From Clostridium sp. BNL1100 (lineage in GTDB: Bacteria; Bacillota; Clostridia; Acetivibrionales; DSM-1351): a stretch of 64,000 nt of DNA. Positions within the stretch are counted from its first letter, which is position 1, and each line of letters starts with the position of its first letter. Below, piece after piece: positions 28,908 to 45,577 of this stretch. The notes under the pieces are model-generated. The model was not told the origin of the DNA, made no database searches, and worked only from the letters and a program-made list of their open reading frames with translations. The DNA lies in the NCBI RefSeq assembly GCF_000244875.1, contig NC_016791.1:4159001-4223000 (forward strand). Direction: 5' to 3'. The translations under genes and the position numbers were made by a program.

Positions 28908-28970
28908 TTTTGGCGTCCCGGACAGGAATCGAACCCGCATCAGTGGAACCGGAATCCACCGCTTTATCCA
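28908..28970 (-). repeat. attL: displaced 3' fragment of tRNA-Arg
   Basis: 63 bp identical to 45515-45577. It contains the CCA end, acceptor 3' strand, T arm, variable loop and anticodon arm, but the sequence diverges within the D arm, so no functional tRNA can be made here. It marks the left junction of the element. Confidence 0.9.
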
Positions 28971-29026
28971 AATCCTTGAAAGTCTTATTATAAGCGAATT
29001 TGCCAATTTTGTATTCATTACGGAAC

Positions 29027-29034
29027 AGTGGACT
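29027..29034 (+). promoter_or_regulatory. Putative integrase arm-type site AGTGGACT (left, +)
   Basis: One of four octamers AGTGGACT near the two attachment sites: 29027 (+), 29075 (-), 45435 (+) and 45602 (-). Three of them are followed by NATCA/NATCG-like bases. Arrangement in opposed pairs at both ends suggests recombinase or directionality-factor binding. Confidence 0.45.
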
Positions 29035-29074
29035 AATCATTTTTTAATAACCAAAAAGTATTTAAAATTAATTA

Positions 29075-29082
29075 AGTCCACT
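29075..29082 (-). promoter_or_regulatory. Putative integrase arm-type site AGTGGACT (left, -)
   Basis: Inverted partner of the site at 29027, about 105 bp inside the attL core. Confidence 0.45.
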
Positions 29083-29157
29083 GACATTATAACATGATTT
29101 TATCAAATATAAAATATAAGAAATACTCCTACCATTTACATATAGCAAACCTCTCCA

Positions 29158-29400
29158 CTATTTAAATAAATGGCTCTGAATAGCATAAAAAAAGAACCCT
29201 ACAAGAGAAGTTCCAAACATTCCTACCACTATTCCTATAAGCCATTTTAAAGTACCTACAAGGTTTGATATTTGACCGCATAAGTTCTTGATTTCATTCG
29301 TATTAGTTGCATCTGATTTTTCCAAAACATCAATCTTTTTATCATGTTCATCAAGCCTCTTCTCATGCTGATTAAATTTATCCTTAATTATTTCATCCAT
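29158..29400 (-). CDS. XhlA-like phage membrane protein (holin-associated)
   Basis: An 80-residue protein: a charged N-terminal coiled coil (DEIIKDKFNQHEKRLDEHDKKIDVLEKSDATNTNEIKNLCGQISNLVG) followed by one C-terminal transmembrane helix (LKWLIGIVVGMFGTSLVGFFFYAI). This layout is that of XhlA, which acts with a holin in phage lysis in Bacillus. No holin XhlB or endolysin is found next to it. It is the last gene of the element before attL, with only a weak GGTGAT ribosome site. Confidence 0.7.
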   Translation of the reverse strand: MDEIIKDKFNQHEKRLDEHDKKIDVLEKSDATNTNEIKNLCGQISNLVGTLKWLIGIVVGMFGTSLVGFFFYAIQSHLFK

Positions 29401-29421
29401 AATATCACCGTCACTTTCTTA

Positions 29422-30549
29422 TTACCATGCAGCACTAAGCGTAATATAAACGTCTATGTAATTATTAGAACTATCAGTATTTTTTGTATCAATACATCTG
29501 ATTTTCACCTGACCAGATGTATATTGATTTAGATTCTGAATACTAAATGTATTTGCACTCGTTATTGCAAATTGATAGTAACTAGAAGGTACAGAAGTTC
29601 CTGTAATATTTTGAATATTCCATGTTGTGGCTGTTAAAATCCCATCAACATACTTATTGCATGTAAATATTATTTTATCACCTTGTAGTATCTCTCTATC
29701 TGAAGGTGTAACTGTATAAACTGGCACTAGATTCTTCTTTTTGATTAAAAATGTCTTTGTCACTGTATAATAAGAATTTTCATTAATTTTTACTATTACA
29801 TTAACCGCACCTTCTTTTATTCCAGATAATACCCCTGCGTCTGAAATGGTCGCAATGCTTGTATCATCTACAAAATAACTAAAACTAACAGTTTTTAAAG
29901 CAGTATCACCTTGTTTAAATTCTGCTATTATTTGCAATGATTCTCCTTCATTAACTTCAACTACAGTATTGATAATATTTAATGTATAAGAAGATTTATT
30001 TGCAATTTCATTTGCTAAATCATCGTCAGCAGCAACACTATCTAATGAGCAAGTAAGAATTATTAAATTATCCTTCGTCCTATCAATCCCAGTAACTTTC
30101 CATGCCCTACCAGTATTTATAAATCTATCATTTATATCTATTGTCTTTGTAAAATCCGTTACTGGGATAGTGAGTAATATCGTACCAGTAGGTAATGATA
30201 TATATTGTCCACTGGTAACATCCATAACTTTACTTTCAAATGTTGAAGGAATTGATTTTAAAATACCTTTTATAATAAAGTTGACATTATACTGACATTT
30301 CTTAATAACAACCTTTTCATAAACTGCATTAAATGAAATCCCCTGAGATACAGCCAACCAACAATATCCATCATATTCAACTATATCTCCCTGCTTGCAG
30401 TTACCTAAACCGATAAACATATACTTAGTATCTTCACTGGCTTTATCTTCTATCTCCTTGAAAAATGCTTTCTGTTCACTACCATTTACTTTTACTGTCT
30501 TATAATTGCTTTTCATATGTTCCTTAAAGATATCTAGCAAAGTATTCAT
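29422..30549 (-). CDS. Phage structural protein with Ig-like (BIG2-type) domain
   Basis: A 375-residue protein. The N-terminal ~175 residues (MNTLLDIFKEHMKSNYKTVKVNGSEQKAFF..., IVEYDGYCWLAVSQGISFNAVYEKVVIKKC) resemble small phage head-closure or neck proteins that fold as beta barrels; residues about 190-270 form an Ig-like repeat (SYTLNIINTVVEVNEGESLQII..., SIATISDAGVLSGIKEGAVNVIVKI), and a second one covers 275-370. It is probably displayed on the particle. GAGGGTGAAAT precedes the ATG. Head-closure function is an inference; the Ig domains are clear. Confidence 0.6.
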   Translation of the reverse strand: MNTLLDIFKEHMKSNYKTVKVNGSEQKAFFKEIEDKASEDTKYMFIGLGNCKQGDIVEYDGYCWLAVSQGISFNAVYEKVVIKKCQYNVNFIIKGILKSIPSTFESKVMDVTSGQYISLPTGTILLTIPVTDFTKTIDINDRFINTGRAWKVTGIDRTKDNLIILTCSLDSVAADDDLANEIANKSSYTLNIINTVVEVNEGESLQIIAEFKQGDTALKTVSFSYFVDDTSIATISDAGVLSGIKEGAVNVIVKINENSYYTVTKTFLIKKKNLVPVYTVTPSDREILQGDKIIFTCNKYVDGILTATTWNIQNITGTSVPSSYYQFAITSANTFSIQNLNQYTSGQVKIRCIDTKNTDSSNNYIDVYITLSAAW

Positions 30550-30678
30550 ATTTCACCCTCTTTCTTCATTATAAAATGAATAATTATTGATGTAAATTCC
30601 GCTTTAAGTAGCAGGGTAATATAATTAATACCCCTAAAAAAACAAACGGAATTTAGGTCGTTTTTCTATCATTTTTAC

Positions 30679-31017
30679 TTACTTTCTGGTAAACATTAAA
30701 CTGAATGGACTATACTCTTCATTTACATCAGGAATTGAAGCAATTCTATCCTTTAAATCCTGAATTCTTTGTTTTAAAAACTTGGCTGCATCTGTAGTTG
30801 TTAGAAATTCTGTTTCAACCCTTCTCATAAGGTCAACATTGTTTGATACCGCTTCCAGAATGTCAATCACAGCAAATAATAATGATTTCTGCATAGTAGT
30901 TTTATCATAATTATCTGTGGCGGTAAGATTGTTTTCCTGTAAGAATGTAGTATATTCTTGGTCTGTAAAATACTCTTTGTTTGATAATTCAAGTTTTAAT
31001 CGTTCTAATACTGTCAT
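30679..31017 (-). CDS. Probable phage head-tail connector protein
   Basis: A 112-residue, largely helical protein starting MTVLERLKLELSNKEYFTDQEYTTFLQENNLT, a pattern often seen in gp6-like head-completion or connector proteins, which bind the portal. I do not recognise it with certainty. AGGAAGG precedes the ATG. It is followed by the Ig-domain gene after a 129-bp gap that includes an AATTCCG/CGGAATT inverted repeat. Confidence 0.45.
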   Translation of the reverse strand: MTVLERLKLELSNKEYFTDQEYTTFLQENNLTATDNYDKTTMQKSLLFAVIDILEAVSNNVDLMRRVETEFLTTTDAAKFLKQRIQDLKDRIASIPDVNEEYSPFSLMFTRK

Positions 31018-31073
31018 AAATTTATTTCCTTCCTTTCATAATTTTATATTTGATATAGTTTAAAAATAAGCAT

Positions 31074-31099
31074 AAAAAAACCTCTAACTAAAGAGGTTT
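31074..31099 (-). terminator. Terminator between the 31109 gene and the connector gene
   Basis: AACCTCT (31079-31085) pairs with AGAGGTT (31092-31098); read leftward the stem is followed by TTTTTTT. It closes the two-gene block 31109-31815 and isolates it from the late structural genes. Confidence 0.75.
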
Positions 31100-31108
31100 A
31101 AATTGATT

Positions 31109-31471
31109 TTATAAAAACATTTTATCAATATCTATTTTTGATATTGGTAATTGCTCGTTATACCAAATTTTCTTAAAACTTCTAAAATTATTGTATTCAT
31201 AAATCATAGCATTGAAAAAAGTATTAAAATCAATTGTATATAAATATTTACTGACCCATCCAAAACCATTTCCTAACTCTTTTAGCCTTTCTTTACTAAG
31301 AAATGAAAATATTAAAATATAGCCATTTTCATAGCTATCCCTTAGTGCTTCTGTTCCTAAAAGAGTACTATTATTATAAGGATGGTCAAGAAATTCTGCT
31401 CTTATTTTTTTCCATTCTTCTAAATATTTATCATTACCCATTGGATAATGATGACCTAATTCTAAAAACAT
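31109..31471 (-). CDS. Unknown small protein of the element (cargo pair, second gene)
   Basis: A 120-residue soluble, aromatic-rich protein (MFLELGHHYPMGNDKYLEEWKKIRAEFLDHPYNN..., GYILIFSFLSKERLKELGNGFGWVSKYL). No known motif recognised and no membrane segment. Start 31471 is chosen because AGGAGG lies nine bases upstream; an in-frame ATG at 31489 overlaps the stop of the upstream gene (TAATG). The tight coupling to the 31489 gene and the terminator behind it suggest a two-protein cargo module. Confidence 0.55.
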   Translation of the reverse strand: MFLELGHHYPMGNDKYLEEWKKIRAEFLDHPYNNSTLLGTEALRDSYENGYILIFSFLSKERLKELGNGFGWVSKYLYTIDFNTFFNAMIYEYNNFRSFKKIWYNEQLPISKIDIDKMFL

Positions 31472-31488
31472 ATTTATACCTCCTGACA

Positions 31489-31815
31489 TTATCTAAGTTT
31501 ATTTAATTCCTTAAAATAATCTTCTAAGTCCTGTTTTTCTTCTACTAAAAAATCAACAATTTCAACATCAGGCAAAGTCATTTTATCATCAAAAGTAAAT
31601 ATACCTATTCTGCTGTTAGGTATGAATTCACTTTTTGTAAAATAATTTTTTTGTTCTTTTCTACCTTTAAAAGGTATGTAAACAACTGCATAAGTTTTAT
31701 TATCATCTATTACAATATTTTTTAGTTTATTCATTATCTCAATCCAATGCTTATTATTCATCTTAGCAAGGAATTGTTCTTTTTCCCAATATTCATAGTC
31801 ACTCATTTTTTCCAT
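31489..31815 (-). CDS. Unknown small protein of the element (cargo pair, first gene)
   Basis: A 108-residue protein, acidic, mixed helix-strand (MEKMSDYEYWEKEQFLAKMNNKHWIEIMNKLKN..., TYAVVYIPFKGRKEQKNYFTKSEFIPNSRIGIFTFDD). Not recognised. GTGGAGG precedes the ATG at 31815 with eight bases spacing; an ATG at 31860 has no such site. It is translationally coupled to the next gene (stop and ATG overlap). The pair sits between replication-type and structural genes, a typical place for accessory functions. Confidence 0.5.
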   Translation of the reverse strand: MEKMSDYEYWEKEQFLAKMNNKHWIEIMNKLKNIVIDDNKTYAVVYIPFKGRKEQKNYFTKSEFIPNSRIGIFTFDDKMTLPDVEIVDFLVEEKQDLEDYFKELNKLR

Positions 31816-31886
31816 AATCCATTCCTCCACACTTAAGACTATCATTTCTATATTTTTCAATGATTTTATTATAATAAGCCAATATA

Positions 31887-32249
31887 TTATTTTTTTATTT
31901 CTTTTATATATAGCTTATATGGTTGTCCCTGCTTAATCTTTCCTCGTTCAATTAGATTAAATTCTACTAATTCATCAATCTTCTTTCTTACCGTATCACC
32001 AGTAGTAGTTCCTACAATATTGGCGATATCTTCTCCTGTTATAGTCACATAAAGACCGTTTTCGTCTTTTTCATTTTCTTTTTTTGATATTATTAAAAGC
32101 ACACCATACAATATAGCCGAACTTTGGCTTACTCTTTTTCTATCACCTGCTCCGTTATATCTCGGATTAACAAGTAACTCAATAGGAACTGGAATAAATT
32201 CACCATAATACTCTAATAATTCCTTAATAAGAGAACCATCTTTGTTCAT
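31887..32249 (-). CDS. RepA-like winged-helix protein
   Basis: A 120-residue protein whose first half (GEFIPVPIELLVNPRYNGAGDRKRVSQSSAILYGVLLIISKKEN) resembles the N-terminal domain of RepA_N replication initiators, with the second half a winged helix (YVTITGEDIANIVGTTTGDTVRKKIDELVEFNLIERGK). The usual long C-terminal part of full RepA is missing, so it may be a replication initiator fragment, a regulator, or an antirepressor. It lies between the serine recombinase and the small cargo pair. Confidence 0.6.
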   Translation of the reverse strand: MNKDGSLIKELLEYYGEFIPVPIELLVNPRYNGAGDRKRVSQSSAILYGVLLIISKKENEKDENGLYVTITGEDIANIVGTTTGDTVRKKIDELVEFNLIERGKIKQGQPYKLYIKEIKK

Positions 32250-32385
32250 AATTCTTTCTCCCCCTCATTAACATTTTTTACCTATATTGTATTACTATTA
32301 CACAAATTTTTCAATAAAATGTAAAATTTTCTCTGTGGGGATTTTTTGTGTTTGCTATATTTTCATTTTGAAAAATGGGGTAATG

Positions 32386-32413
32386 AAAAAGCCAACCATT
32401 TACTGATTGACTT
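32386..32413 (-). terminator. Terminator of the serine recombinase gene
   Basis: AAGTCAATCA pairs imperfectly with TGGTTGGCTT around GTAAA, reading leftward, then TTTTTC. It overlaps the very end of the recombinase gene. Confidence 0.65.
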
Positions 32414-33002
32414 TCTCTTTTTTTAGTATCTTAATGTACTTATCTAATGATGGTCTTGATATATCGCACATTCTAGCACATTCAGTTTTATTTATTTTGC
32501 CGTTCTTCAGTAGGTCATATGCTTTAATAACGCTTGCAGGTATATCTTCAATTGTAGTTGTAGGTCTACCAACAATAGAACCTTTTGCTTTAGCATTTGC
32601 CATACCGCTCTTTACCCTTTGACTTATTATGTTTCTTTCAAGTTCACTAAAGACACCCATCATTTTCAGCATACCTTCCGTCATTGGGTCAAGTTCCTTA
32701 CTGCAATCAACAATAAAGTTACCTAGAATTAATTTAATTTTTCTATCCTTGGCAAACTCTATAATCTCACATAGTTGCTTAGTTGAACGAGTGATTCTGG
32801 ATACCTCAGTTGCAACAATAGTATCACCACATTCAACTTTATCCATAAGCCTCTTCAATTGTTCTCTATCTGCCTTAGTCCCTGATTCATATTCCAGATA
32901 TATATTACTCTCGGTCACTCCCTGTGACTTCAATTCTCTTGTCTGCCTAGTAATATCCTGCTTAGTTTCATTAGTTGAGCATCTTGCGTATCCATAAATC
33001 AT
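32400..33002 (-). CDS. Small serine recombinase (resolvase/invertase family)
   Basis: A 200-residue serine recombinase. The N-terminal catalytic domain has Ser9 in YARCSTNETKQDITRQ, the conserved Arg segment EVSRITRSTKQLCEII, and LERNIISQRVKSGMANAKAKG at the end of the long helix; the C-terminal ~45 residues form a DNA-binding helix-turn-helix (KINKTECARMCDISRPSLDKYIKIL). It is too short to be a phage large serine integrase; it probably resolves dimers or inverts a segment. Its own promoter lies at 33041-33069. Confidence 0.9.
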   Translation of the reverse strand: MIYGYARCSTNETKQDITRQTRELKSQGVTESNIYLEYESGTKADREQLKRLMDKVECGDTIVATEVSRITRSTKQLCEIIEFAKDRKIKLILGNFIVDCSKELDPMTEGMLKMMGVFSELERNIISQRVKSGMANAKAKGSIVGRPTTTIEDIPASVIKAYDLLKNGKINKTECARMCDISRPSLDKYIKILKKEKVNQ

Positions 33003-33040
33003 ATCGTTTACACCTCTTTGTTATTAGTTTCCTCTCCTAT

Positions 33041-33069
33041 ATATTACCATAGGATTGGTAATTTGTAAA
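33041..33069 (-). promoter_or_regulatory. Promoter and overlapping palindrome upstream of the serine recombinase
   Basis: Read leftward: -35 TTTACA (33064-33069), 17-bp spacer, -10 TAATAT (33041-33046). The spacer and -10 are covered by an inverted repeat (ATTACC-8-GGTAAT), which would be a good site for autoregulation by the recombinase or a repressor. Confidence 0.55.
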
Positions 33070-33513
33070 CAAAAAGGTATAGATAATTTTCTTTACAACT
33101 TTTCAATTAAAAATGGTCTGAAACATTGAAAATTCGTGATACTGTCAGTAGAATTATTCAACTCACCGATGTAAAGGATAACATTTGTTTTCTTTTACAT
33201 ATTTAGAATATCACTTTGCTGATATCGCAAAGTCAACATATCAGTAATCGTATCATTAATATCACCACTAGGTTACTGTTGTTGCTGATTTCGGCTAAAA
33301 CTGTTAATAATAGTTGGGGGTTGGGTTTTCCGCATAAGAGTATGGGGGGCGGCTTCATCTATAACAGGGCAGTTTTCGTTGATAAAACTTAATCCCCTAA
33401 ACTCAAAATAATTAACCTGAAAAATTAAAGATTTTTCTCAACTTTCTGAGAAACGGAAAACCCTTATATTTCAACTATTTTAGTACGAATTTCTAAATGA
33501 TAATCACTTTCAT
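33070..33513. other. Gene-free region between serine recombinase and portal
   Basis: No supported gene. It includes a 10-bp inverted repeat GGGTTTTCCG (33323-33332) / CGGAAAACCC (33455-33464) flanking an unusually G-rich tract (TATGGGGGGCGGC), and AATATCAC/GATATTCT-type palindromes near 33205-33270. A leftward frame reading through 33270-33430 is open but lacks any start codon. Composition and hairpins suggest a packaging site, a replication origin or a recombinase res site. Confidence 0.45.
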
Positions 33514-34815
33514 TTACTCTTTATTCTCTCCAGTGTCAGAACCTTCTTTTTGAATCCTCTCCATTTCCATTGAAACATTATTGGTTAGCGGTGACTTCTC
33601 AATTATTGTCTGTTTACTTATAGCACCCATATCAAACTGAGTTTTCAAATTACTGATAACCTCTCCTGTTGCTACAGGAATACTATAATTGAACTCTACA
33701 TCAACATACTCCCCTGTACTAAAATGTACTCCCTGCATATCTAATATTTTTGTTATTACATCAAACCTCTTCCTGAATCCCTCTTTCAACCATTTTTCAC
33801 TTTGCATAGCCTTAACGCTTGCTAAATGGAATAATAATTTTAAACTAACCTCAGAAACATTGGCAACATTGCTATTACTTGAAATGATTCCAGGTATGCA
33901 AGCAATATCATTAAGCATCTGCTTTAAGTTATCAAGATATAATTTGATGGTATTATAGTCCATGTTAGTGGATACTACCTTGTAATCTCCCGCATCAAGA
34001 TTAATGACATAACCTACTGCATCGGCAGGAATACTGCTTTCAATTCGTTGTCCAATAGCAACATTCATTGGATTTAAACTATTAGTATAAATAGAATCTC
34101 CCAACTTTGAATATATATCTTCCAGTTCGTCAAGAATCGGCTTAATATCATCCAATTCGCTCTTACCGAAATTATCATCCCAATCTGAATAATTATGATA
34201 ATGAATCGGCAACCCCGCAACATTAATTTTAGTATCAATTAAATGAAGTTCTCCTCCCTCATTGCTCCAATGCTCTACATATGTAGGATAGTAAACATTA
34301 TAGAAACTAATATTACTTACGGCATCTGTCCAATGCTCAACAAATCCGATATATTCTCCTGTATCATCTGAATATACAGGGAAACCATCTTCACTATTTA
34401 TAAGTTTAGATTTTATGACTCCATCATTTATATATATAACTTCATAGCAATCAGCAAATTTATTTACCTTGTCCAATATTAGGAAATCCGTATTGTTAAA
34501 CTGTCCTAACCTATAAACATTATTAAATTCCTTGACCATATTCTCAGTACCGCTCAATGATACTGACTTACCCAACAAGTATGTACTATGAAAATTCAAG
34601 ATGGTCTTAGCATACTGGAGAATAATTTTTCTAGTAATAAATTCCTTGCCTTTATACTTAGCATCCTCTCTTAATAATACTTTATGAATACCTTTTAAAT
34701 AGTTCCTATTATCAATAACCTTAGATATTCTTTCTATATGAAATCCCTTCTTAACCTCTTCGGAAAACCATTCCGTTGGGTTATCGTATTTATTTATATA
34801 ATCTTGTAATGTCAT
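33514..34815 (-). CDS. Phage portal protein (SPP1 gp6 type)
   Basis: A 433-residue portal of the SPP1 Gp6-like family, which forms the dodecameric DNA gateway of the capsid. Early residues RNYLKGIHKVLLREDAKYKGKEFITRKIILQYAKTILNFHSTYLLGKSVSL match the family beginning, and the long helix region near residues 270-330 (DNLKQMLNDIACIPGIISSNSNVANVSEVSLKLLFHLASVKA) matches the clip/stem. It follows the large terminase by 125 bp on the same strand. The C-terminus is acidic (GSDTGENKE). No MuF-like or minor head gene follows, which is unusual. Confidence 0.85.
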   Translation of the reverse strand: MTLQDYINKYDNPTEWFSEEVKKGFHIERISKVIDNRNYLKGIHKVLLREDAKYKGKEFITRKIILQYAKTILNFHSTYLLGKSVSLSGTENMVKEFNNVYRLGQFNNTDFLILDKVNKFADCYEVIYINDGVIKSKLINSEDGFPVYSDDTGEYIGFVEHWTDAVSNISFYNVYYPTYVEHWSNEGGELHLIDTKINVAGLPIHYHNYSDWDDNFGKSELDDIKPILDELEDIYSKLGDSIYTNSLNPMNVAIGQRIESSIPADAVGYVINLDAGDYKVVSTNMDYNTIKLYLDNLKQMLNDIACIPGIISSNSNVANVSEVSLKLLFHLASVKAMQSEKWLKEGFRKRFDVITKILDMQGVHFSTGEYVDVEFNYSIPVATGEVISNLKTQFDMGAISKQTIIEKSPLTNNVSMEMERIQKEGSDTGENKE

Positions 34816-34939: not shown

Positions 34940-36511
34940 TTAAAATGAATAATAAAAGGGTGACTTCATTCCTGCAATTGCAAGACACAAACTCATTACC
35001 AAGTCATCATGTCTACCAGAAATAGCACCCATTTTACCTGTATCAGATATTGAGAACACCTTCATTTCCTCTAATATCTCCTTGCTATTCAGTTGTATTT
35101 GCCCACACTCAAACATTTCACGGCAGTCATTTACAATTATACTTTTTGTCTTATTATTGGTATCAAATCCGACCTGCCACCTCTCACGATTAAATTCATC
35201 ATATGACTTATATTTGTGCATATTCATGTAAGAATAATCGTATCTGAGCCTCTCCAATACAGAATGACCTCCACTGGCTTTCTCTACCGTCAATAATGCT
35301 TTGTTATAATAACGTCCAATATCATTGATAATCCCTGCAAATTCATATGGCTTGATTTTATTGTTCTTAAACATGGCAACTTCTTTTCCGTCTTTATCTA
35401 GGACAATAGCACAGGAACTATCAGAACCAATACCCTCTGAGCAATCCACACCAACATAATACCTTTGATTAGGTTTTGTTATATCATAAATAAAAAATGA
35501 CCTGCCGTAATGATTCTGCAAGGTCACTGGTAATCCAGATATATTTGATTTTGGTATGTACCTCTCTTTTTTCTGGATAATTGACTTTTCAACCATATCA
35601 ATTCTTTTATTATCAAAGATATTTGCTCCAGTGTTTATGAAGCACTCAATATCAGTCGATGGATATTCAACGTGGAAATCTTCCAAACTACTATCATTTA
35701 TCTTATCCCTACGCCAAATTAATTGTTCAATGGTTGCTCCAAGTTCCAGTAGTTGATTTTCCTCTTCATCCAGTTCGTCAACTGTAAGCAATTTACCGTG
35801 TCTGGCTCTATATTTTTTTACTGCCTGTTGATACTGTTTTTCAAATAACCCTCTCCCGTTAATCCAGTTAAAGAAGAATGACTTATAACTATTTTCACTG
35901 TTCTTTGCCTGATAGTATGTATCTGCAAACATATTCAAACCACAAGCAGTAGATTCAATAAGAATCCTACCACTTTCTGATACGGCTTGAGTGATACTGT
36001 TTAATTGTTTCTCTGGATTCTTCCAAAATGCAAATTCTGATAAATGGACAATTCCATTTAAAGTATCCCCTCTCCCCAAATCTTGATTTCCTGCTGTTGT
36101 ACAGGTGATTTTTGAACCATTTGACATCTTTAATTCCTGACGGTTATTGGTCATTAGTTTCGGTTTGATAAAATCAGGTACACTATTGAATTGTTGCTTT
36201 AATTTATCAAATATAGTATTTGTAGATTTTTGACTATGGCTCACCAGTAGACAGGTTGTATTAGGATGGACAATGCAAGCCCTGATACTAAGTGCTACAA
36301 CTATAGATGATATTCCTAATTGTCTGCTTTTAAGGACTATGGATTGATTCTCCATTTCCTCTACAAACTTTCGTTGTTCATCTGTCGGTATAAACGGTAC
36401 TATTTTACCACTCTTATCTGCAATCTTTATAAATGTCTTTATCCAATCAATCTCGTGTCCGTCCTGCCATAAGTATTCCAACTTCTTCATATCATCTGTA
36501 GATAGTGGCAT
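34940..36511 (-). CDS. Phage terminase large subunit
   Basis: A 523-residue packaging motor: an N-terminal ATPase with a Walker A-like loop KSRQLGISS (61-69), Walker B-like NGIVHLSEFAFW where Ser replaces the usual Asp, a coupling motif ILIESTACG, and a C-terminal RNase H-like nuclease with YYVGVDCSEGIGSD and later HDDLVMSLCLAIAG. Start ATG 36511 fits GGCGGTGAG upstream and leaves a single base after the small-subunit stop; GTG 36520 is the alternative. It should act with the portal to fill the capsid. Confidence 0.9.
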   Translation of the reverse strand: MPLSTDDMKKLEYLWQDGHEIDWIKTFIKIADKSGKIVPFIPTDEQRKFVEEMENQSIVLKSRQLGISSIVVALSIRACIVHPNTTCLLVSHSQKSTNTIFDKLKQQFNSVPDFIKPKLMTNNRQELKMSNGSKITCTTAGNQDLGRGDTLNGIVHLSEFAFWKNPEKQLNSITQAVSESGRILIESTACGLNMFADTYYQAKNSENSYKSFFFNWINGRGLFEKQYQQAVKKYRARHGKLLTVDELDEEENQLLELGATIEQLIWRRDKINDSSLEDFHVEYPSTDIECFINTGANIFDNKRIDMVEKSIIQKKERYIPKSNISGLPVTLQNHYGRSFFIYDITKPNQRYYVGVDCSEGIGSDSSCAIVLDKDGKEVAMFKNNKIKPYEFAGIINDIGRYYNKALLTVEKASGGHSVLERLRYDYSYMNMHKYKSYDEFNRERWQVGFDTNNKTKSIIVNDCREMFECGQIQLNSKEILEEMKVFSISDTGKMGAISGRHDDLVMSLCLAIAGMKSPFYYSF

Positions 36512-36512
36512 A

Positions 36513-36914
36513 TCACTCACCGCCTTTTTTCTTTAAAGCAGGAATATCTACATTTCTTAAAAAGTCATGTATTTCATCTGTTGACTCATTAAAAAATTCC
36601 GATTTACTAAATGATTCAATCCATTTAGCACTATTCACATCACCTTGTAATGCCTTTTCCAATTGTTTCTGATATATCTTAACCATATTAAGCGTTTTGG
36701 TTTTCTTCAAATAGAATTGCATTGCTTCCTGAACGTCTTGCCTTTTTATCCATTCCTTGGTGACTTCAAATGGCACATCCTGTAGATTTTTACGTGACAA
36801 TTCTTCAAAAGGAATCCGTTCCTCCTCTGGTGTCATCCACCATTCCACAAAATAAGCTATTCGATTTGGTACAATTTCTTTTAATTGTGTTGTTAATGAA
36901 AACTCCTTTTTCAT
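36513..36914 (-). CDS. Probable terminase small subunit
   Basis: A 133-residue, mostly helical protein directly before the large terminase, the usual place for the DNA-recognition subunit. It lacks an obvious N-terminal helix-turn-helix; the middle (EVTKEWIKRQDVQEAMQFYLKKTKTLNMVKIYQKQLEKALQGDVNSAKW) resembles the oligomerisation part of small terminases. ATG 36914 is used because GAGAGGA lies ten bases upstream. Function assigned mainly from position. Confidence 0.6.
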   Translation of the reverse strand: MKKEFSLTTQLKEIVPNRIAYFVEWWMTPEEERIPFEELSRKNLQDVPFEVTKEWIKRQDVQEAMQFYLKKTKTLNMVKIYQKQLEKALQGDVNSAKWIESFSKSEFFNESTDEIHDFLRNVDIPALKKKGGE

Positions 36915-36990
36915 ATTAATTTCACTTCCTCTCAAAAATAGAAAAAGGACTCCTATTTAGAAGCCCTCCAATAATGAAGGATGGACTGAT

Positions 36991-38976: not shown

Positions 38977-39068
38977 ATGTACATCACGATTCCTTTCAAT
39001 GCAAAAGGCAACTACCAACATTGAGTCAGTAATTGCCCTTGTCGTTTTGTCTATGTGTTTTTTTGTTA

Positions 39069-39709: not shown

Positions 39710-40555
39710 TTACATATTTAATAATCGTTGACTATAATTGAAAAAATCTTTTCTTGTCAATGCACAACTGAATATATTCTCTGAAATATCTTGCTTTGAG
39801 ATATTAAGATTACATTTAGGTAATGATACTGCCTTATTCGTCAGTTCTTTACAAATTAAGAAATCAGTTTTGGGCATAAAAAAAGGAAGGTCAAATTCCT
39901 TCCTTAATCCTTCTAAATCAATATCTGTATTAAGTTTTTTATCCCATATTTCAATATTTTTATGTAGATTATATTTGTAAATAATCTTGTTGAAATCCTG
40001 TTGCGTATGTCGTTTAAGAACCTCATACAGTTCAGGAAATCCCATAACCTCTACCAAGTAATGTTTGTTTGAGATTTTATCATTTTGAAATGTACTATAA
40101 AAACCTTTATATGTGCTATCAATAGCAAGTAATATCATTTTACCCTCTTCGCTTTTGGGTAAAGGAATGTCATATAATGCCCATACAAGCAATAATGTAC
40201 TACCGCAATATTTCTGGAAGTAATTACTTCTGCTTACCTTGTCGGCAACATTGAAATTTATACTCTGCTCATTACAATAATCATCTGTTGAAAGCATCAC
40301 AACGTGATTATCAAAGCATTTAAAGTTCTTTATATTTACCGCTATATCTACACCTATTGGTCTTTTGCTTATATCCGCCTCATCTGTTACATAAACATTT
40401 GAGAAGTCATAAAAATATTGAATATCCCATCCTTTTACCTGCTTCAGTATTTCACATGAAAACAAACTATCAATATCATTACTTAAAATTAAGTCATAGT
40501 AATTCCTTTCTTTCCACCACTCAGGAAATTTATTTATGTAGTCGACCTTTATCAT
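39710..40555 (-). CDS. Degenerate DHH-like phosphoesterase of the element
   Basis: A 281-residue soluble protein. It has features reminiscent of the DHH fold: motif I-like LILSNDIDSLFSCEIL (about 22-37), motif II-like GVDIAV (68-73) and DNHVV (about 82-86) in place of the catalytic DHH. A C-terminal DHHA1 domain is not recognisable. DHH proteins are nucleases (RecJ, NrnA) or cyclic-dinucleotide hydrolases (GdpP). If the relation holds, the enzyme could degrade a nucleotide signal or single-stranded DNA. This is inferred from a few motif positions only. Confidence 0.4.
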   Translation of the reverse strand: MIKVDYINKFPEWWKERNYYDLILSNDIDSLFSCEILKQVKGWDIQYFYDFSNVYVTDEADISKRPIGVDIAVNIKNFKCFDNHVVMLSTDDYCNEQSINFNVADKVSRSNYFQKYCGSTLLLVWALYDIPLPKSEEGKMILLAIDSTYKGFYSTFQNDKISNKHYLVEVMGFPELYEVLKRHTQQDFNKIIYKYNLHKNIEIWDKKLNTDIDLEGLRKEFDLPFFMPKTDFLICKELTNKAVSLPKCNLNISKQDISENIFSCALTRKDFFNYSQRLLNM

Positions 40556-40892: not shown

Positions 40893-41099
40893 TTATTTCT
40901 TTTCCTCTTCAAATTGCCGAATATACTCGTTATAATTTGATAAAATATAATCATCAATGTTCGTTTTACCGTTTTCCCACCTTGACAATAATGACTCACT
41001 GCAACCGCAGTACTGACTTATATCAATAAGCCGTACCCTGTTCCTCTTCCTCCATATTTGATATTGCTCACGTTCTTGTAAATTTGTTATTACTGGCAT
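40893..41099 (-). CDS. Small XRE-family helix-turn-helix protein
   Basis: A 68-residue DNA-binding protein with a Cro/C1-like HTH: EREQYQIWRKRNRVRLIDISQYCGCSESLLSRWENGKTNID. ATG 41099 is chosen because AAGAAGG precedes it with eight bases spacing. It follows a terminator and a palindrome TCAAAAATTTTTTGA (41118-41132) that might be its operator. Confidence 0.75.
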   Translation of the reverse strand: MPVITNLQEREQYQIWRKRNRVRLIDISQYCGCSESLLSRWENGKTNIDDYILSNYNEYIRQFEEEKK

Positions 41100-41117
41100 A
41101 ACTAAACCTTCTTCCAT

Positions 41118-41132
41118 TCAAAAATTTTTTGA
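41118..41132. promoter_or_regulatory. Palindrome TCAAAAATTTTTTGA, copy 1 (possible operator)
   Basis: A 15-bp AT palindrome identical to 43091-43105. Each copy sits just after a terminator and just before a new transcription unit of the element, the expected place for an operator shared by two promoters. Confidence 0.45.
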
Positions 41133-41137
41133 TTAAT

Positions 41138-41195
41138 AAAAAAGAAGAGTCAAATGGGTAACTGATATATATAAGCACCCTAACCCCTCTTCTTT
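41138..41195 (-). terminator. Terminator after the 41180 HTH gene
   Basis: Reading leftward AAGAAGAG near 41187-41194 pairs with CTCTTCTT near 41142-41149 with inner pairing GGGTTA/TTACCC-like, then TTTTTTATT. It overlaps the 3' end of the HTH gene. Confidence 0.6.
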
Positions 41196-41428
41196 CCTGG
41201 TTTTTTCTTTTTTTCTTGTATGATTTCTTGTTCAATTTCTTTTGGCTTTGGAACAATGATTCCGTTCAGAGCATCTATCCACAGTGGATATAATTCTTCT
41301 GGTATTGCTTGCTTTTGCCCCTCCAACATTGATATGTAATTTTTGCTGACATTTAGACAGTCGGCAATATATTGTTGTGTCATGTCCTTATGTAATCTCA
41401 ACATCTTTAACTTAAACCCTGATAGCAT
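41180..41428 (-). CDS. XRE-family helix-turn-helix protein
   Basis: An 82-residue protein with a canonical HTH_3 domain (KLKMLRLHKDMTQQYIADCLNVSKNYISMLEGQKQAIPEELYPLWIDAL) and a very basic C-terminus (KKKKPGKKRG). It probably regulates the element, perhaps via the repeated palindromes. It is 68 bp downstream of the capsid gene, an odd location because phage repressors usually sit next to the integrase. Confidence 0.85.
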   Translation of the reverse strand: MLSGFKLKMLRLHKDMTQQYIADCLNVSKNYISMLEGQKQAIPEELYPLWIDALNGIIVPKPKEIEQEIIQEKKKKPGKKRG

Positions 41429-41496
41429 ATTCCACCTGCTTTCTCAAATTTTATAGTAAGAGGAAGTCAAAATGACTTCCCCATACTTGGTTATAC

Positions 41497-42327
41497 TTAC
41501 GCTATTGTCTTTTTAAGAACTACAACGCCGTCGTCTGCAATTAGCTTAGTAGCATAAATAAAGTCACCTACAACATCAGTTGCTTTAAGTAATGCCTGTC
41601 TCTGTAACTCAATGTTAATATCCCTCTTTGTCATATAAGCAAGTGCATTTTTCTTCACTACAAGAGTTATACACTCATTAAGTGTTGAATCGTATGTACC
41701 ATGGTCAGCACAAAATACAGGTATGTTCCTGTAGTAGCCAATAAGACCATTTCTTATAATTCCGTTTCCATCTGTAGTATAAGTCTTATTCTTATCAACA
41801 AATTCATTCATTGCATAAAATGAATCAAGCAATAGAGAGTTAATAACTATACCTGCCATATCCTCTGTATCCTGTTCATCAGCAAATAAATTCATTCCAG
41901 ACGCCAATTCAGCAGCCGTAATTGCTTTTGCATCTGCTGTTGATTTCTTTAAAGAAGTAGTTAATGCTTCAGTAATCAAATCTGTATCAAGTTTTCTCGC
42001 AAATACAATACCTTGCTGAGTTGCACTTTCATTTACTTGGTCTCCGAAGGCAGTAATGTCATCAATATCGAATACTCTAACCGCTTTACCAATCTGCTTA
42101 ATTGTTGCTTGACTCTTATCTTGATCAAGACTCTCAGGTACAAGTGGAGTACCTTTTGTCATTACAGTTGCCTCTCCAATGGTCTTAAACTTAGGAAAAG
42201 TTACTGTATCACCTACAGTTGTATTTTTAAGAAATCCCAAATCAACTGCAAGATTAGCAACCTTTACTTTTCCTGCAAACTTTTCTCTTACAATTCCTGC
42301 GTAAACCTCTGTAATAATTAAACTCAT
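41497..42327 (-). CDS. Phage major capsid protein (N4-gp56 type)
   Basis: A 276-residue capsid protein of the HK97 fold, N4-gp56-like family: VGDTVTFPKFKTIGEATVMTKGTPLVPESLDQDKSQATIKQIGKAVRVFDIDD is the typical N-terminal part, FARKLDTDLI and GNGIIRNGLIGYYRNIPVFCADHG the later conserved segments, ending with VVLKKTIA. ATG 42327 follows AAGGTGA; the GTG three codons earlier overlaps that site. It lies 87 bp after the scaffold gene, the normal order for capsid assembly. Confidence 0.85.
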   Translation of the reverse strand: MSLIITEVYAGIVREKFAGKVKVANLAVDLGFLKNTTVGDTVTFPKFKTIGEATVMTKGTPLVPESLDQDKSQATIKQIGKAVRVFDIDDITAFGDQVNESATQQGIVFARKLDTDLITEALTTSLKKSTADAKAITAAELASGMNLFADEQDTEDMAGIVINSLLLDSFYAMNEFVDKNKTYTTDGNGIIRNGLIGYYRNIPVFCADHGTYDSTLNECITLVVKKNALAYMTKRDINIELQRQALLKATDVVGDFIYATKLIADDGVVVLKKTIA

Positions 42328-42413
42328 AATATTCACCTTATCCTTTCATTTAATCAACTTCTGTTATAAAAATGGGCATAAAAATACCCTAGTCATCATT
42401 CTAACTAAGGTTG

Positions 42414-42935
42414 TTATGCTAGTTTCTTATAAAGTTCTGGATTAGTTTTAAACAATTCCATACGCTGAGCGTAATTCATTTTTTGAAATTGTTCTTTTGT
42501 AATCCCTTCATTCTTTTGATGCGTTGATGGCTTGAAACTCCCTGATAATAAATGAGTATTTAAAATCTCAGTTACTTCTTTAGCCATACCCTCTACATCA
42601 TCAGAATTAAGATATTTAGCCAATCCTGCAGGTAAATTATTCTTAGTTAATGCATCCTGAATAAGATACTGTTTTTCTTTGGCTTTTAACTCGGCTTCTT
42701 TTGCTAAAAGTTCCTGTTGTTTTGCTTCCAGTTCTTTTTCTTTGGGTCTAAGTTTAGCTAATTCATCTTCAAGTATTTTCTTTTCTTGTACATACTTGGT
42801 TCTGATTTTATCCGACTCACTCTGTAAAGCTTTTTCAAAGTCCTCTTTACTCAAAAGTCCTTCTTTAGCCATATTCTGTGCTTCAACCATAGCACTTTCA
42901 AATTCTTCCTTGCTTAAATTTTCTTTCCATTCCAT
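42414..42935 (-). CDS. Phage capsid scaffolding protein (DUF4355-like)
   Basis: A 173-residue acidic, largely coiled-coil protein with a central run of EKELEAKQQELLAKEAELKAKEKQ and a C-terminal NYAQRMELFKTNPELYKKL tail typical of phage scaffold proteins, where it binds the capsid shell. It stands directly before the major capsid gene. Together they would build procapsids. Confidence 0.82.
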   Translation of the reverse strand: MEWKENLSKEEFESAMVEAQNMAKEGLLSKEDFEKALQSESDKIRTKYVQEKKILEDELAKLRPKEKELEAKQQELLAKEAELKAKEKQYLIQDALTKNNLPAGLAKYLNSDDVEGMAKEVTEILNTHLLSGSFKPSTHQKNEGITKEQFQKMNYAQRMELFKTNPELYKKLA

Positions 42936-43112
42936 AAATAAACCTCCATTTCATATTTAGTTGTCCATATTTGCCCTGTAGACCAGTTCAAACTGTGACA
43001 CCTATAAGTTTGTTATATAAGTTTGTTATTGTATATATTTAAAGGCTCATAAAGCCGATAAACCAAAATTAAAGTAAACTCCATCATTACTCAAAAATTT
43101 TTTGAGTATAAA
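42936..43112. other. Leader region of the scaffold-capsid unit
   Basis: Contains a tandem 13-bp repeat ATAAGTTTGTTAT (43004-43016 and 43017-43029), a TCAAAAATTTTTTGA palindrome at 43091-43105, and no gene. The promoter for the scaffold-capsid genes should be here; no unambiguous -35/-10 pair was found. Confidence 0.45.
43091..43105. promoter_or_regulatory. Palindrome TCAAAAATTTTTTGA, copy 2 (possible operator)
   Basis: Identical to 41118-41132 and again directly downstream of a terminator, upstream of the scaffold-capsid unit. Confidence 0.45.
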
Positions 43113-43156
43113 AAAAGAAAGATATAAGCGGTCGATACTCATATCCTTCTAATATG
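43113..43156 (-). terminator. Terminator of the small zinc-module array
   Basis: Reading leftward AGAAGGATATGAG pairs with CTTATATCTTTCT (two mismatches or G-T pairs), followed by TTTTTTTATA. It separates the array from the scaffold and capsid genes. Confidence 0.75.
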
Positions 43157-43239
43157 ATGATGATGGAGGTGTAGCCCCAAAATTTATTTTATTATTATAT
43201 ACCATAAGTTAAAAAATTATATTTATGTCTGAAATCTAC

Positions 43240-43375
43240 TATCCATGCATGTTTTCGGAGTTTTCTATTACTTCACATATTTTAGAACGTGCCTTTTTCA
43301 TAGATTCTCTTTGGTATTGTAATTGCATTTCTCTAGCACACTCATCACAATATTTTTGTTTATTGTTTTTTTGTA
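43240..43375 (-). pseudogene. KYCDEC module without start codon
   Basis: Open frame reading NKQKYCDECAREMQLQYQRESMKKARSKICEVIENSENMHG. The upstream part that would match the neighbouring unit (RDTRDGEGYKK) is out of frame by one base at a run of seven A residues; with eight A residues, as in the next unit, it would be continuous. Confidence 0.5.
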
Positions 43376-43434
43376 TCCTTCTCCATCTCTAGTATCTCTT
43401 GAAGGTGTTTTATAATTGGCTGTTTATGCGTGTT

Positions 43435-43700
43435 TTAAGAATTTTCTATTTTTCTTCCAGTCCAATTTTCACGTTTCCATTGATTTTTTTGCTTTTGTTT
43501 AATTTCTTTAGCACAATCATTACAGTACTTGGTTTTGTTATTTTTTTTGTATCCTTCTCCATCTCTAGTATCTCTTGAAGGTATCCTGAAACTAACTATA
43601 TATGCATGTTTTAAGGGTTTTCTATTTGCGAGAATCTTAAATATCTTTCTTTTTGTATAATTTTGTTGCTTTTTATGTTTCCCTTAAATACCATTAAGAC
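43435..43700 (-). pseudogene. KYCNDC module, longest open frame but no ATG
   Basis: About 88 codons are open after a TAA near 43701, ending KYCNDCAKEIKQKQKNQWKRENWTGRKIENS. The frame includes HAYIVSFRIPSRDTRDGEGYKK, giving the fullest version of the module, but it lacks an ATG, GTG or TTG start near its beginning. An overlapping frame from ATGGAGAAGG is open for 38 codons as well, so coding is ambiguous. Confidence 0.4.
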
Positions 43701-43814
43701 AAATTTATATAAACCTTAAAAGTATTGATTTTAAAGGGTTTTAAAATATACATAAATTGAAAAACGGCTAGAAGTAGCTTATATTAATAGTTTTAGCTCT
43801 GCTAACATTTTCTT

Positions 43815-43905
43815 TTTTTTCTCATTAGTTCTTTTTGATAATTATTTCTATGCTCTTTAAAACAACTATCACAATATTTTTGTTTTGTTGTTTTTTTGTA
43901 TCCTC
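43815..43905 (-). pseudogene. KYCDSC module fragment
   Basis: Frame GYKKTTKQKYCDSCFKEHRNNYQKELMRKKRKC follows a very strong GGAGGAGG, but the reading frame has no start codon after its upstream TAA. Either decayed or expressed by a non-standard route. Confidence 0.4.
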
Positions 43906-43972
43906 CTCCATATTAGCCTCTCTTGAATGTGTTCTAAAAGGTACTAATATCAATAGTTATAAGGAAATCACG

Positions 43973-44074
43973 TTACTTCACTGAATTGTTTCTTGCTTTT
44001 TTCATACTTTCTCTTTGGCATTGTAATTGCATTTCTCTAGCACAATCTTCACAATATTTTGTCTTATTATTCAT
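43973..44074 (-). CDS. 33-residue Cys-pair microprotein
   Basis: ATG-initiated frame MNNKTKYCEDCAREMQLQCQRES... ending KKARNNSVK. It has one CxxC pair (a half zinc knuckle) and a basic helix. No strong ribosome site. One of only two array units with an intact start. Confidence 0.4.
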   Translation of the reverse strand: MNNKTKYCEDCAREMQLQCQRESMKKARNNSVK

Positions 44075-44274
44075 AATAGAAAAATTATTGTTATACTTTG
44101 AAAACCATTATTCATAGGTGTTTTAAGAGTTTTCTATTTCGTTAGATTTCACAGAGACGTGTATCACCACATGACATACTCAAAATTTATTTTATTATTA
44201 TATACCATACTAGTATCTCTTGAAATATATCTCAAATACAGCCATATCAATGGTTTAAAGCATTTTAAAAAATT

Positions 44275-44403
44275 CTAGTGGTTATTACTCCACCATTCTC
44301 TTTTTGATTTTTTTTCATTCTCTTTACTACATTCTTTACATAATTTATGATTTTTCCCTTGAATCTTTATTAATTTACCGCCCCCAATATTCATTCTAGC
44401 CAT
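44275..44403 (-). CDS. 42-residue Cys-pair microprotein
   Basis: ATG frame MARMNIGGGKLIKIQGKNHKLCKECSKENEKKSKREWW..., first unit of the array behind the integrase. One CxxC pair plus a basic, Lys-rich tail suggests nucleic-acid binding or a zinc-bridged dimer. A GGTG lies ahead of the ATG. Unknown family. Confidence 0.45.
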   Translation of the reverse strand: MARMNIGGGKLIKIQGKNHKLCKECSKENEKKSKREWWSNNH

Positions 44404-44438
44404 ATTCACCATAAGCATAATCTTCTTCGAAATTGACA

Positions 44439-45362
44439 TTACTTTTTAATCTTTCTTATATTCGTTTTTTTATGAGGTAAAATGTTTCTTATTGGAGTAA
44501 ACGAAGTGTGACTATCTTTAACATCAGTATCAGATAAAGCAACATATTTACGGGTCATATCCATCGTGGTATGTCCCATTATTTTTTGCAAGGTTAGTGC
44601 ATTTCCACCATTGCGTAAATAATATAGTGCAAAACAATGTCGTAATGAATATGGAGTTATGTCTGTACCAAGTGTCTTTGAATACTTTTCAAAACGTCTT
44701 GATACAACGTCTGCATTTAATTTCTCTCCTGTACTACTAGAAAATACTGGCACATTTTCATCCCAATCATCAGGTCTTAAATTGATAATTTTCGTAATTG
44801 GTCTTATTGTATCAATACTTAGTGGTAAAGTTCTCGCCACTCCTGTTTTTGCTACTTCAGCAGATACAGTAACGCAATTATGCTTTAAATCAAAATCTGA
44901 TATTTTCAAAGATAATGCTTCTTTGGGTCTAATTCCATTGTCTAGCATCATAAGCATTAATGCAAAATCTCTTAGACCCACAAATGTAGTTTTATTAGGG
45001 ATAGTTAATAGTTGTTGAAATGTATCAATCGGAATATCAATTATTTTGTCTTGTACTTTTCTTTTTGATAGTTTTTCCATTGGGTTAGAAGATATTAAGT
45101 CCTCTTCCTTCAAGTAGTCAAAGAAATTTTTTAAATATGACCGCCGAAGATTATAAGTTGCAGGTTTAATATCCTCTCCCATATATTCCATTACGGATAC
45201 TTCAAGTTGCTGAATTGCATTTGGATGCCTTCTAAAAAAGATATTTACATGTTTGTCATAATCTCGTATTGTTCTTTCACTTACTCCTTGTGCCTTTTTG
45301 TACAATAAAAAATCTTTGAGTTCCTTTTCCCAATCGACCTTTTTAGTTTGTTTAATTTTCAT
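44439..45362 (-). CDS. Tyrosine recombinase (integrase of the element)
   Basis: A 307-residue XerC/D-like integrase. SAM-like core-binding domain in the first ~110 residues (DFLLYKKAQGVSERTIRDYDKHVNIFFRRH), then the catalytic domain with Arg in LDNGIRPKEALSL, YSLRHCFALYYL (Tyr replaces the first His of the HxLRH box), GHTTMDMTRKYVAL containing the His and the nucleophilic Tyr. ATG 45362 follows AAAGGAGG. It sits about 155 bp from the intact tRNA-Arg, as expected for the enzyme that inserted the element at the tRNA 3' end. Confidence 0.93.
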   Translation of the reverse strand: MKIKQTKKVDWEKELKDFLLYKKAQGVSERTIRDYDKHVNIFFRRHPNAIQQLEVSVMEYMGEDIKPATYNLRRSYLKNFFDYLKEEDLISSNPMEKLSKRKVQDKIIDIPIDTFQQLLTIPNKTTFVGLRDFALMLMMLDNGIRPKEALSLKISDFDLKHNCVTVSAEVAKTGVARTLPLSIDTIRPITKIINLRPDDWDENVPVFSSSTGEKLNADVVSRRFEKYSKTLGTDITPYSLRHCFALYYLRNGGNALTLQKIMGHTTMDMTRKYVALSDTDVKDSHTSFTPIRNILPHKKTNIRKIKK

Positions 45363-45434
45363 GTTATAACCTCCTTTGATTTTTAAATACAAAAGAGGCA
45401 ATCCACTTATCTCTAAGACCTAAAATTACAGGTC

Positions 45435-45442
45435 AGTGGACT
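45435..45442 (+). promoter_or_regulatory. Putative integrase arm-type site AGTGGACT (right, +)
   Basis: Lies between the integrase start and the attR core, inside the element; same octamer as at 29027, 29075 and 45602. Confidence 0.45.
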
Positions 45443-45474
45443 CATCGTATTATATTACAACTTTCTAAAGGAAT

Positions 45475-45507
45475 CAAAAAAGCCAACAACCGCATAGTTG
45501 CTGACTT
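45475..45507 (-). terminator. Element-borne terminator behind tRNA-Arg
   Basis: Reading leftward AGTCAGCAAC pairs with GTTGTTGGCT around TATGCG, followed by TTTTTTG. It lies 11 bp beyond the tRNA CCA and replaces the host terminator now stranded at 28865-28896. Confidence 0.8.
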
Positions 45508-45514
45508 TCAGGAT

Positions 45515-45577
45515 TTTTGGCGTCCCGGACAGGAATCGAACCCGCATCAGTGGAACCGGAATCCACCGCTTTATCCA
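45515..45577 (-). repeat. attR core within tRNA-Arg
   Basis: 63 bp identical to 28908-28970, covering the tRNA from D arm to CCA plus three bases. Integration therefore regenerated an intact tRNA at this end. Confidence 0.9.

Follow-up and report, generated by a model that had tools for sequence, protein, structure and literature searches.

The window analysed here is a stretch of 64,000 nucleotides from Clostridium sp. BNL1100 (assembly GCF_000244875.1, contig NC_016791.1, positions 4,159,001 to 4,223,000). An integrated element of 16.7 kb lies at positions 28908-45577 of this window, inserted at tRNA-Arg(CCG). As the original prediction held, the insertion is in the 3′ end of the tRNA gene. 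The element is bounded by exact direct repeats; the two copies of the attachment (att) repeat match at 63/63 bases and the identity stops there on both sides. The G+C content is 30.9% in the element and 37.7% and 37.8% in the flanks. A query of 303 bases, with the flanks joined around one att copy, detected an empty site in the same-genus genome G007 (94% over query bases 83-302, spanning both junctions); of the other nine same-genus genomes, 8 gave partial matches and G008 none. An integrase, the att repeats and the unoccupied site of G007 together qualify it as a mobile integrative element. At G002, G003 and G006, also of this genus, paired partial matches to the att region were seen ~31 kb, 10.8 kb and 6.8 kb apart; the same tRNA-Arg may host other elements there and is a possible hotspot.

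The features of the element are given below in the order of transcription. All the main genes are on the minus strand, and none of the 17 main open reading frames (ORFs) has an internal stop. Scores are those of matches to the PHROGs and Pfam libraries; HTH, helix-turn-helix; Ig, immunoglobulin; AF2, AlphaFold2; pLDDT, predicted local distance difference test.

45518-45592, minus strand: tRNA-Arg(CCG), the 3′ part of which supplies the right att repeat
45515-45577, no strand: right att repeat, 63 bp, equal to the 3′ part of tRNA-Arg(CCG)
44439-45401, minus strand: tyrosine integrase, 320 aa (PF00589 1.3e-27, phrog_1 6e-43)
42960-44440, no strand: integrase-scaffold interval without a clear gene; contains direct repeats that have diverged, and fragmentary small Cys-rich ORFs
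42414-42935, minus strand: scaffold protein, 173 aa (phrog_172 7e-9)
41497-42336, minus strand: major capsid protein, 279 aa (phrog_544 3e-27, PF25209 8.7e-9)
41180-41428, minus strand: HTH protein behind the capsid gene, HTH82 (PF01381 6.4e-5)
40893-41117, minus strand: second HTH protein, 74 aa (PF01381 2.3e-4, under the curated cut-off)
39710-40555, minus strand: family-conserved protein, 281 aa, without PHROG or Pfam match
36991-39021, minus strand: primase-like replication protein, 676 aa (phrog_25531 2.9e-66, unknown function)
36513-36935, minus strand: putative terminase small subunit (TerS), by position and family conservation, without library match
34940-36520, minus strand: terminase large subunit (TerL), 526 aa (phrog_2 2.9e-40, PF17289 6.4e-11)
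33514-34815, minus strand: portal protein of SPP1 gp6 type, 433 aa (PF05133 2.3e-61)
32400-33002, minus strand: serine recombinase/invertase in a variable slot (PF00239 1.8e-33)
31109-32249, minus strand: variable cargo, namely an HTH protein of 120 aa with a weak replication-initiation-like match and proteins of 123 and 126 aa with none
30679-31017, minus strand: all-helical connector candidate, 112 aa, head-tail adaptor by position (profile and AF2 model)
29422-30549, minus strand: Ig-domain protein, 375 aa, neck-type by position (phrog_16444 5.8e-31; AF2 pLDDT 87)
29158-29400, minus strand: XhlA-like small membrane protein, the last gene (PF10779 2.3e-17)
28908-28970, no strand: left att repeat, 63 bp, identical to 45515-45577

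In the first half, the integrase gene is followed by 1.5 kb of diverged repeats, the scaffold and capsid genes, two HTH genes, the gene of the 281-aa protein and small ORFs. The second half runs from the primase-like gene through TerS, TerL, SPP1-type portal, serine recombinase and cargo to the 112-aa, Ig and XhlA-like proteins. Twenty ORFs of at least 50 aa, outside the fragments in 42960-44440, were scanned against PHROGs and Pfam. The integrase, TerL, portal, scaffold and capsid of the original prediction were recovered, and its SPP1 portal is borne out by the PF05133 match, but TerS is assigned by position only and the primase by a weak match to the CHC2 zinc ribbon (0.003, under the cut-off). 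An N4-gp56-like capsid had also been proposed; the capsid protein matched PF25209 and phrog_544 and no N4-gp56 family. Searches of solved structures by sequence gave nothing convincing for the 676-aa protein, and for the 281-aa profile only weak matches to one stretch. We take the Asp and Asn-His motifs of the 281-aa protein to resemble those of DHH-type phosphoesterases; no library matched them. Family profiles of TerS, the 112-aa protein and the 281-aa protein match 56, 56 and 39 contigs, respectively (duplicates counted). The 112-aa protein is 43-63% identical to 9 relatives, and its AF2 model has a pLDDT of 79; a fold search with this model in the PDB and a viral library gave nothing at 0.001, and its profile found nothing convincing among solved relatives by sequence. 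Only two tandem arrays, both short, are present in 42960-44440, which is possibly a region of decayed genes or a replication region.

The 20 ORFs scanned in the element yielded no recognisable tail gene (tape measure, fibre, baseplate, nozzle or spike) and no endolysin. A tape-measure profile built from nine tape-measure-bearing relatives (see below) gave no match in the element, the profile being narrow. By these scans the element does not qualify as a complete tailed prophage, neither a tape measure nor other genes for tail or lysis having been recognised. The predicted lack of tail and lysis genes thus stands for tape measure, fibre, baseplate and endolysin; on the other side, the Ig protein aligns with tail tubes and the last gene is XhlA-like.

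These features suggest, with a probability of roughly two in three, that the element is a mobile phage satellite, integrated and capsid-forming, which represents a separate lineage and receives its tails from a helper phage. Because no tape measure, fibre, baseplate or endolysin is recognised, filled heads would need the tail and lysis functions of such a helper, and from this we infer helper dependence. The integrase inserts the element into tRNA-Arg, as the att repeats and the empty site show, and would excise it as a circle, which the primase-like protein would replicate. By families and gene order, the head would be built from scaffold and capsid proteins and filled via the terminases and portal, and the neck would be closed by the 112-aa and Ig proteins. 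Filled heads would then take tail and lysis functions from the helper, which may be an unrelated siphophage, for example the prophage near 597-619 kb of the host chromosome, or a tape-measure-bearing relative with shared neck proteins. Head genes without recognised tail genes, together with variable cargo slots, would also fit a domesticated particle, for instance a gene transfer agent or a defence device based on the capsid. Against this, the element brings its own integrase, its att repeats are intact and the site is empty in a relative; its occurrence is patchy (the capsid was found in 1/11 genomes of the window's family) and a relative exists in circular form, so that domestication is extremely improbable.

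The occurrence of related elements was examined by portal and capsid searches. A scan of IMG/VR with a portal alignment of 3 sequences gave 34 loci; besides the record of the window itself these are 33 loci with 46-67% identity, and 25/34 of the contigs have a length of 10-20 kb. Scanning with the capsid detected 7 loci in IMG/VR, among them again the window's record, and another 6 distributed over five named genomes, those of Clostridium acetireducens, Anaerophilus nitritogenes, a Clostridiales metagenome-assembled genome (MAG), a Herbinix MAG with two of the loci, and Dethiosulfatibacter aminovorans. Among whole genomes, matches to the portal profile were obtained in 1/58 of the order, 5/392 drawn from the class, 18/178 of the family of G344 and 7/398 drawn from the phylum; the genome of the window is itself among those counted for the order, class and phylum, and there is overlap between the sets. 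Plasmids gave one weak portal match, and tblastn of the portal against 50,697 phage records gave no match at 1e-5. By portal profile the whole genomes hold 28 elements (window included, two in G942), of which 27 were examined, G439 at a contig edge being left out. Some elements were represented twice (L008 is G414, L027 is G344, L033 is G518), and L029 is 99.96% identical to G488. The lineage spans several Bacillota classes and many different tRNA genes.

Bounding direct repeats were found in 16/27 examined elements, the window included, and are 45-88 bp long in 13. Fifteen of the 16 (window included) are 14.4-20.8 kb in length without a match to the tape-measure profile, and 11 of these 15 lie at a tRNA gene. 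Besides the window, the repeat-bounded elements are:

G510: tRNA-SeC, repeat 73 bp; 20.8 kb, without tape-measure match
G539: tRNA-Leu, repeat 60 bp
G414: tRNA-Arg, repeat 56 bp
G334: tRNA not found, repeat 88 bp
G427: tRNA not found, repeat 54 bp
G611 (other class): tRNA-Pro, repeat 45 bp
G892 (other class): tRNA-Arg, repeat 48 bp
G942 (other class), two elements: tRNA-Pro, repeat 46 bp; tRNA-Lys, repeat 70 bp
G595 (other class): tRNA-Pro, repeat 55 bp
G624 (other class): tRNA-Val, repeat 76 bp, with a third copy further out
G706 (other class): tRNA-Leu, repeat 76 bp
G459: repeat of 37 + 27 bp, interrupted; an insertion splits the portal
G395: repeat only 25 bp; the ends may be wrong
G516: repeat 122 bp; decayed, with truncated portal, no capsid match and a 355-aa C-terminal tape-measure relic

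The two elements of G942 are related to each other and lie in one genome at C1 397121 (tRNA-Lys) and 2324326 (tRNA-Pro). At G459 C1 1151945-1154481, an insertion with two ORFs splits the portal gene of an otherwise intact-looking element; transposase families occur among the matches of the ORF set that includes this insertion. Elements G541, G488 and G491 have no tape measure between capsid and connector and no convincing repeat in the stretch examined, while G344 and G525 could not be classed either way. A closed circle of 17,986 bp from the window's clade is represented by two contigs of 18,113 and 18,085 bp, which are 100% identical, circularly permuted and have terminal overlaps of 127 and 99 bp; it gave no integrase match and no tape-measure match.

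The search for the same gene order in other genomes, proposed with the original prediction, was productive. Excluding eight presumed duplicate contigs, a single circular core order is found in 41/42 contigs with at least six core genes (the exception is G525), HTH82 lies within 700 bases behind the capsid gene in 44/44 contigs, and tRNA-Arg is also the site in G414 and G892. Relative to the att sites, the order is permuted in G395 and G624. For the 7 elements found in other classes, the capsid is assigned by position, since the capsid profile has no match at 1e-3 in them. For 8 pairs without tape measure, the ratio of nonsynonymous to synonymous substitutions (dN/dS) is 0.08-0.24 for capsid, TerL and portal and 0.03-0.56 over all core genes, highest for the Ig and 281-aa proteins. 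The core genes are under purifying selection. Capsids of G541 and G539 are 32-33% identical to that of the window compared to 63-64% for TerL; the capsid block may have been swapped on its own in these two.

Deletion of the tail and lysis genes from a prophage, now defective, would account for the same gene content, and the existence of tape-measure-bearing relatives and of the decayed, repeat-bounded G516 speaks for it. For G516 this explanation was accepted, and that element is a true decay product. It was rejected for the window, where it is very unlikely: the core genes are intact with no relic, the clade is free of tape measures where classified, like-built repeat-bounded elements occur in other classes of the phylum, and the core genes are under purifying selection. 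The distance between the capsid and portal genes, used in the original prediction as an argument against deletion, does not by itself serve as one: this order is family-wide and also found in tape-measure-bearing relatives. Deletion is counted against because of the repeat-bounded relatives and the purifying selection. The preference for a satellite over a broken prophage is thus upheld as the best-supported reading by a repeat-bounded family, with a presumed dependence on a helper.

Nine distinct relatives carry a tape measure, six in whole genomes (G518, G517, G527, G524, G485, G550) and three others (L035, L038, L042). Two of these proteins were scanned and matched tape-measure families (L042, phrog_4211, 2.4e-79; G518, 2.4e-43), the other seven being assigned by similarity to them; L042 also has a tail protein (phrog_1887, 7.4e-23). 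Beyond the nine and the duplicate L033, the tape-measure profile matches only the 355-aa relic of G516. Related portal, 112-aa, Ig and TerL proteins are present in all nine, and capsid, scaffold and HTH82 where that part is available, except in G485 and G550, which have an unrelated capsid candidate by position. The relatives differ from the window element in the tape measure (1590-2778 aa where complete) and in length, the known records being 21, 37, 41 and 57 kb. Among 25 further ORFs of these relatives, no match to a tail tube was obtained, and a single ORF matched 'tail completion or Neck1'; the relatives are called tape-measure-bearing rather than complete phages for this reason. By the original prediction, close relatives flanked by a tail and lysis module would mark this copy as a remnant; some do carry a tape measure inside the element, but none of the 11 classified rows of the window's clade does.

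The distribution of tape measures was followed on trees of TerL and portal, in which 'without' means none in the stretch examined, many IMG/VR rows being without proven ends. In a quick tree with 48 rows, of which 34 were labelled as without and 9 as with tape measure and 5 were left unclassified, the label needs 6 changes compared to 8.4 in shuffles, with 8/500 shuffles as low; the label is partly clustered. In a more careful tree of 43 rows, from which the long or distant rows G485, G550, G525, G524 and G527 were left out, the window belongs to a clade of 12 rows, supported at 100/100; eleven of them, counting the window, are without tape measure and one is unclassified. The five tape-measure rows of this tree need 4 changes (3-4 in bootstraps) compared to 4.9 in shuffles, 56/500 being as low. 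Tape-measure-bearing relatives are spread over the tree and share head and neck genes with the tape-measure-free ones. It is possible, though only tentatively proposed, that tail-less head-building elements are the old, Bacillota-wide main form and that tape-measure phages arose within it several times by gain of a tail module, or the reverse; satellite and phage would then be interconvertible, a shared neck letting tails be exchanged. With relatives of both kinds at hand, one can ask in which direction satellites and phages arise from each other, and by which neck proteins the choice of tail is made.

As a special case of the satellite reading, with odds that overlap those given for it, the element could depend on its tape-measure-bearing siblings and exchange head and neck genes with them. 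Both forms have the 112-aa and Ig proteins in common, and G518 (with tape measure) and G510 (without) share 93% identity in TerL, 92% in the portal and 88% in the 112-aa protein. Sibling dependence is nevertheless rather unlikely here, as no sibling was seen in the window's genome (capsid and portal searches each gave a single match there) and the siblings' own tail set is incompletely recognised.

Known capsid-forming satellites were used for comparison. Capsid-forming phage-inducible chromosomal islands (cf-PICIs) average 14 kb in size, with primary host groups that, as given, do not include Clostridia (PMC10803314), and three capsid radiations are reported for them (PMC11389934). As signature genes, PMC10448857 names those for terminases, prohead protease, AlpA, head-tail adaptors and Pri-Rep. 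The window element resembles them in having its own capsid, terminase (small subunit by position), portal, replication gene and integrase, in having no recognised tape measure, fibre or baseplate gene and, with its relatives, roughly in size (14-21 kb here). It differs in having a scaffold gene and a capsid block separate from the portal block, the two groups being set apart by description, not sequence. For two of the signature genes, prohead serine protease and AlpA, no match was found among the 20 ORFs of the element, HTH proteins of other types being the only ones seen; possible counterparts of Pri-Rep and of the head-tail adaptors are the 676-aa protein with its weak CHC2 match and the 112-aa candidate, placed by position with no significant fold match. 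The claim that the element carries exactly the cf-PICI set could thus not be maintained, and the element is not filed as a cf-PICI because protease and AlpA were not recognised. Its mode of action is nevertheless most likely that of a cf-PICI.

MulchRoom and MiniFlayer, two Streptomyces satellites of 14.8 and 17.4 kb in which no primase is reported, were similarly compared (PMC10690885). MulchRoom has an integrase and was observed with long siphovirus-like tails; short fibres are seen on MiniFlayer, which encodes its own capsid. Both satellites carry TerS, TerL, portal, scaffold, capsid and adaptor genes, and the window element is built alike, with a candidate adaptor. The capsid and portal genes are adjacent there and apart here. 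Family profiles gave marginal matches to MulchRoom capsid (4.1e-5) and MiniFlayer TerL (2.6e-4) and portal (7.4e-4), short of a closely homologous head module, and Ig and connector profiles gave none in either satellite. Capsid-forming satellites are known from few lineages, and the present one, which adds several Bacillota classes, looks like a little described Bacillota lineage apart from these. Among the titles and beginnings of abstracts listed, no clostridial capsid-forming satellite was met; most subscription papers were outside this scope, and absence in print is unproven.

At ~597-619 kb of the host chromosome lies what seems to be a complete siphophage prophage; genes matched there include those for terminase, portal and capsid, for tail terminator, tape measure and minor tail protein, and for an endolysin. 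This resident prophage is a candidate helper and no more. As a helper marker, phrog_4211 was rejected, since it matches 12/14 control genomes. PF10145 matches 7 of 9 element-bearing genomes (5 over the cut-off) and also 7/14 controls, and so says little on helpers.

Several observations weigh against a tail-less, helper-dependent satellite. Six family profiles (TerL, portal, capsid, scaffold, connector and Ig) gave no match in the resident prophage, and the nine relatives above possess tape measures. Recognition of tail genes is itself limited, as ~87% of PHROGs are without function. The tape-measure profile finds that of the Enterocloster phage CB457P1 (2.2e-7) and misses the 702-aa tape measure of the resident prophage, because of which other tape measures could also escape it; the 1376-aa protein of MiniFlayer is missed as well. 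In 8 other repeat-bounded elements (G516 included), 67 non-core ORFs of at least 60 aa were scanned, leaving out four minus-strand ORFs and one ORF crossing a stretch boundary. No tail, fibre, nozzle, spike or endolysin was present among the best 25 of 72 PHROG and the best 25 of 30 Pfam families, but the tape-measure relic of G516, which belongs to this set, is absent from the same 25 PHROG families. The 7 elements of other classes were checked by the tape-measure profile alone, and their longest unassigned ORF encodes 758 aa (in G892). Residues 85-272 of the Ig protein align with the tube proteins lambda gpV and T5 pb6 (root mean square deviation 10.8-12.0). When eight long or odd ORFs of relatives were scanned, one, the 585-aa protein of the 17,986-bp circle, matched tail fibres (phrog_1980, 5.6e-10). 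A protein of 541-585 aa occurs in three contigs of the window's clade, this being the one scanned. In the circular relative, at L003 11588-13345, it ends in a Peptidase_S74 chaperone domain.

The tube alignment of a conserved Ig protein placed after the connector, the fibre match in a circle of the same clade and the short fibres of MiniFlayer are what one would expect if the element were an autonomous minimal temperate phage, with the Ig protein (and a fibre protein in some relatives) forming a short tail or entry device that needs no helper. This is unlikely, considering that fibre, nozzle, spike and endolysin were unrecognised in the window and among the families seen for the 8 other elements, and that the portal has no match in the phage records searched. 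The large Enterocloster phage CB457P1 (96.6 kb) has the Ig family (phrog_16444) in common with these elements and carries a phrog_4211 tape measure, as does L042; its Ig homologue is 23% identical. The homologue adjoins the tape measure and a 348-aa protein weakly matching a major tail protein (2.9e-5, 51 residues), an arrangement that also speaks against the Ig protein as an autonomous entry device. Because this neighbour's match is weak and short, the neck role of the Ig protein is no more than a weak inference; it may be neck-type, by position, or a tail tube. The capsid-forming satellite with a helper's tail is retained as the preferred reading.

Further large proteins were noted in relatives. 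Proteins of 945-1078 aa at L003 5367-8309, L005 5765-8602 and L044 3008-6244 have a D-x-D-G/S-D motif, which presumably resembles that of YonO-like or RNA-dependent RNA polymerase-like single-subunit RNA polymerases. Those of L003 and L005 had no Pfam match, and that of L003 and a 1116-aa protein of L112 no PDB match. Larger relatives encode an actin-like protein (L005 3657-5471, L112 6990-8770, L117 12156-13573), of which the one scanned gave a weak ALP_N match (0.0004). Its neighbour is, as we assume, ParR-like, an arrangement resembling plasmids or phage-plasmids.

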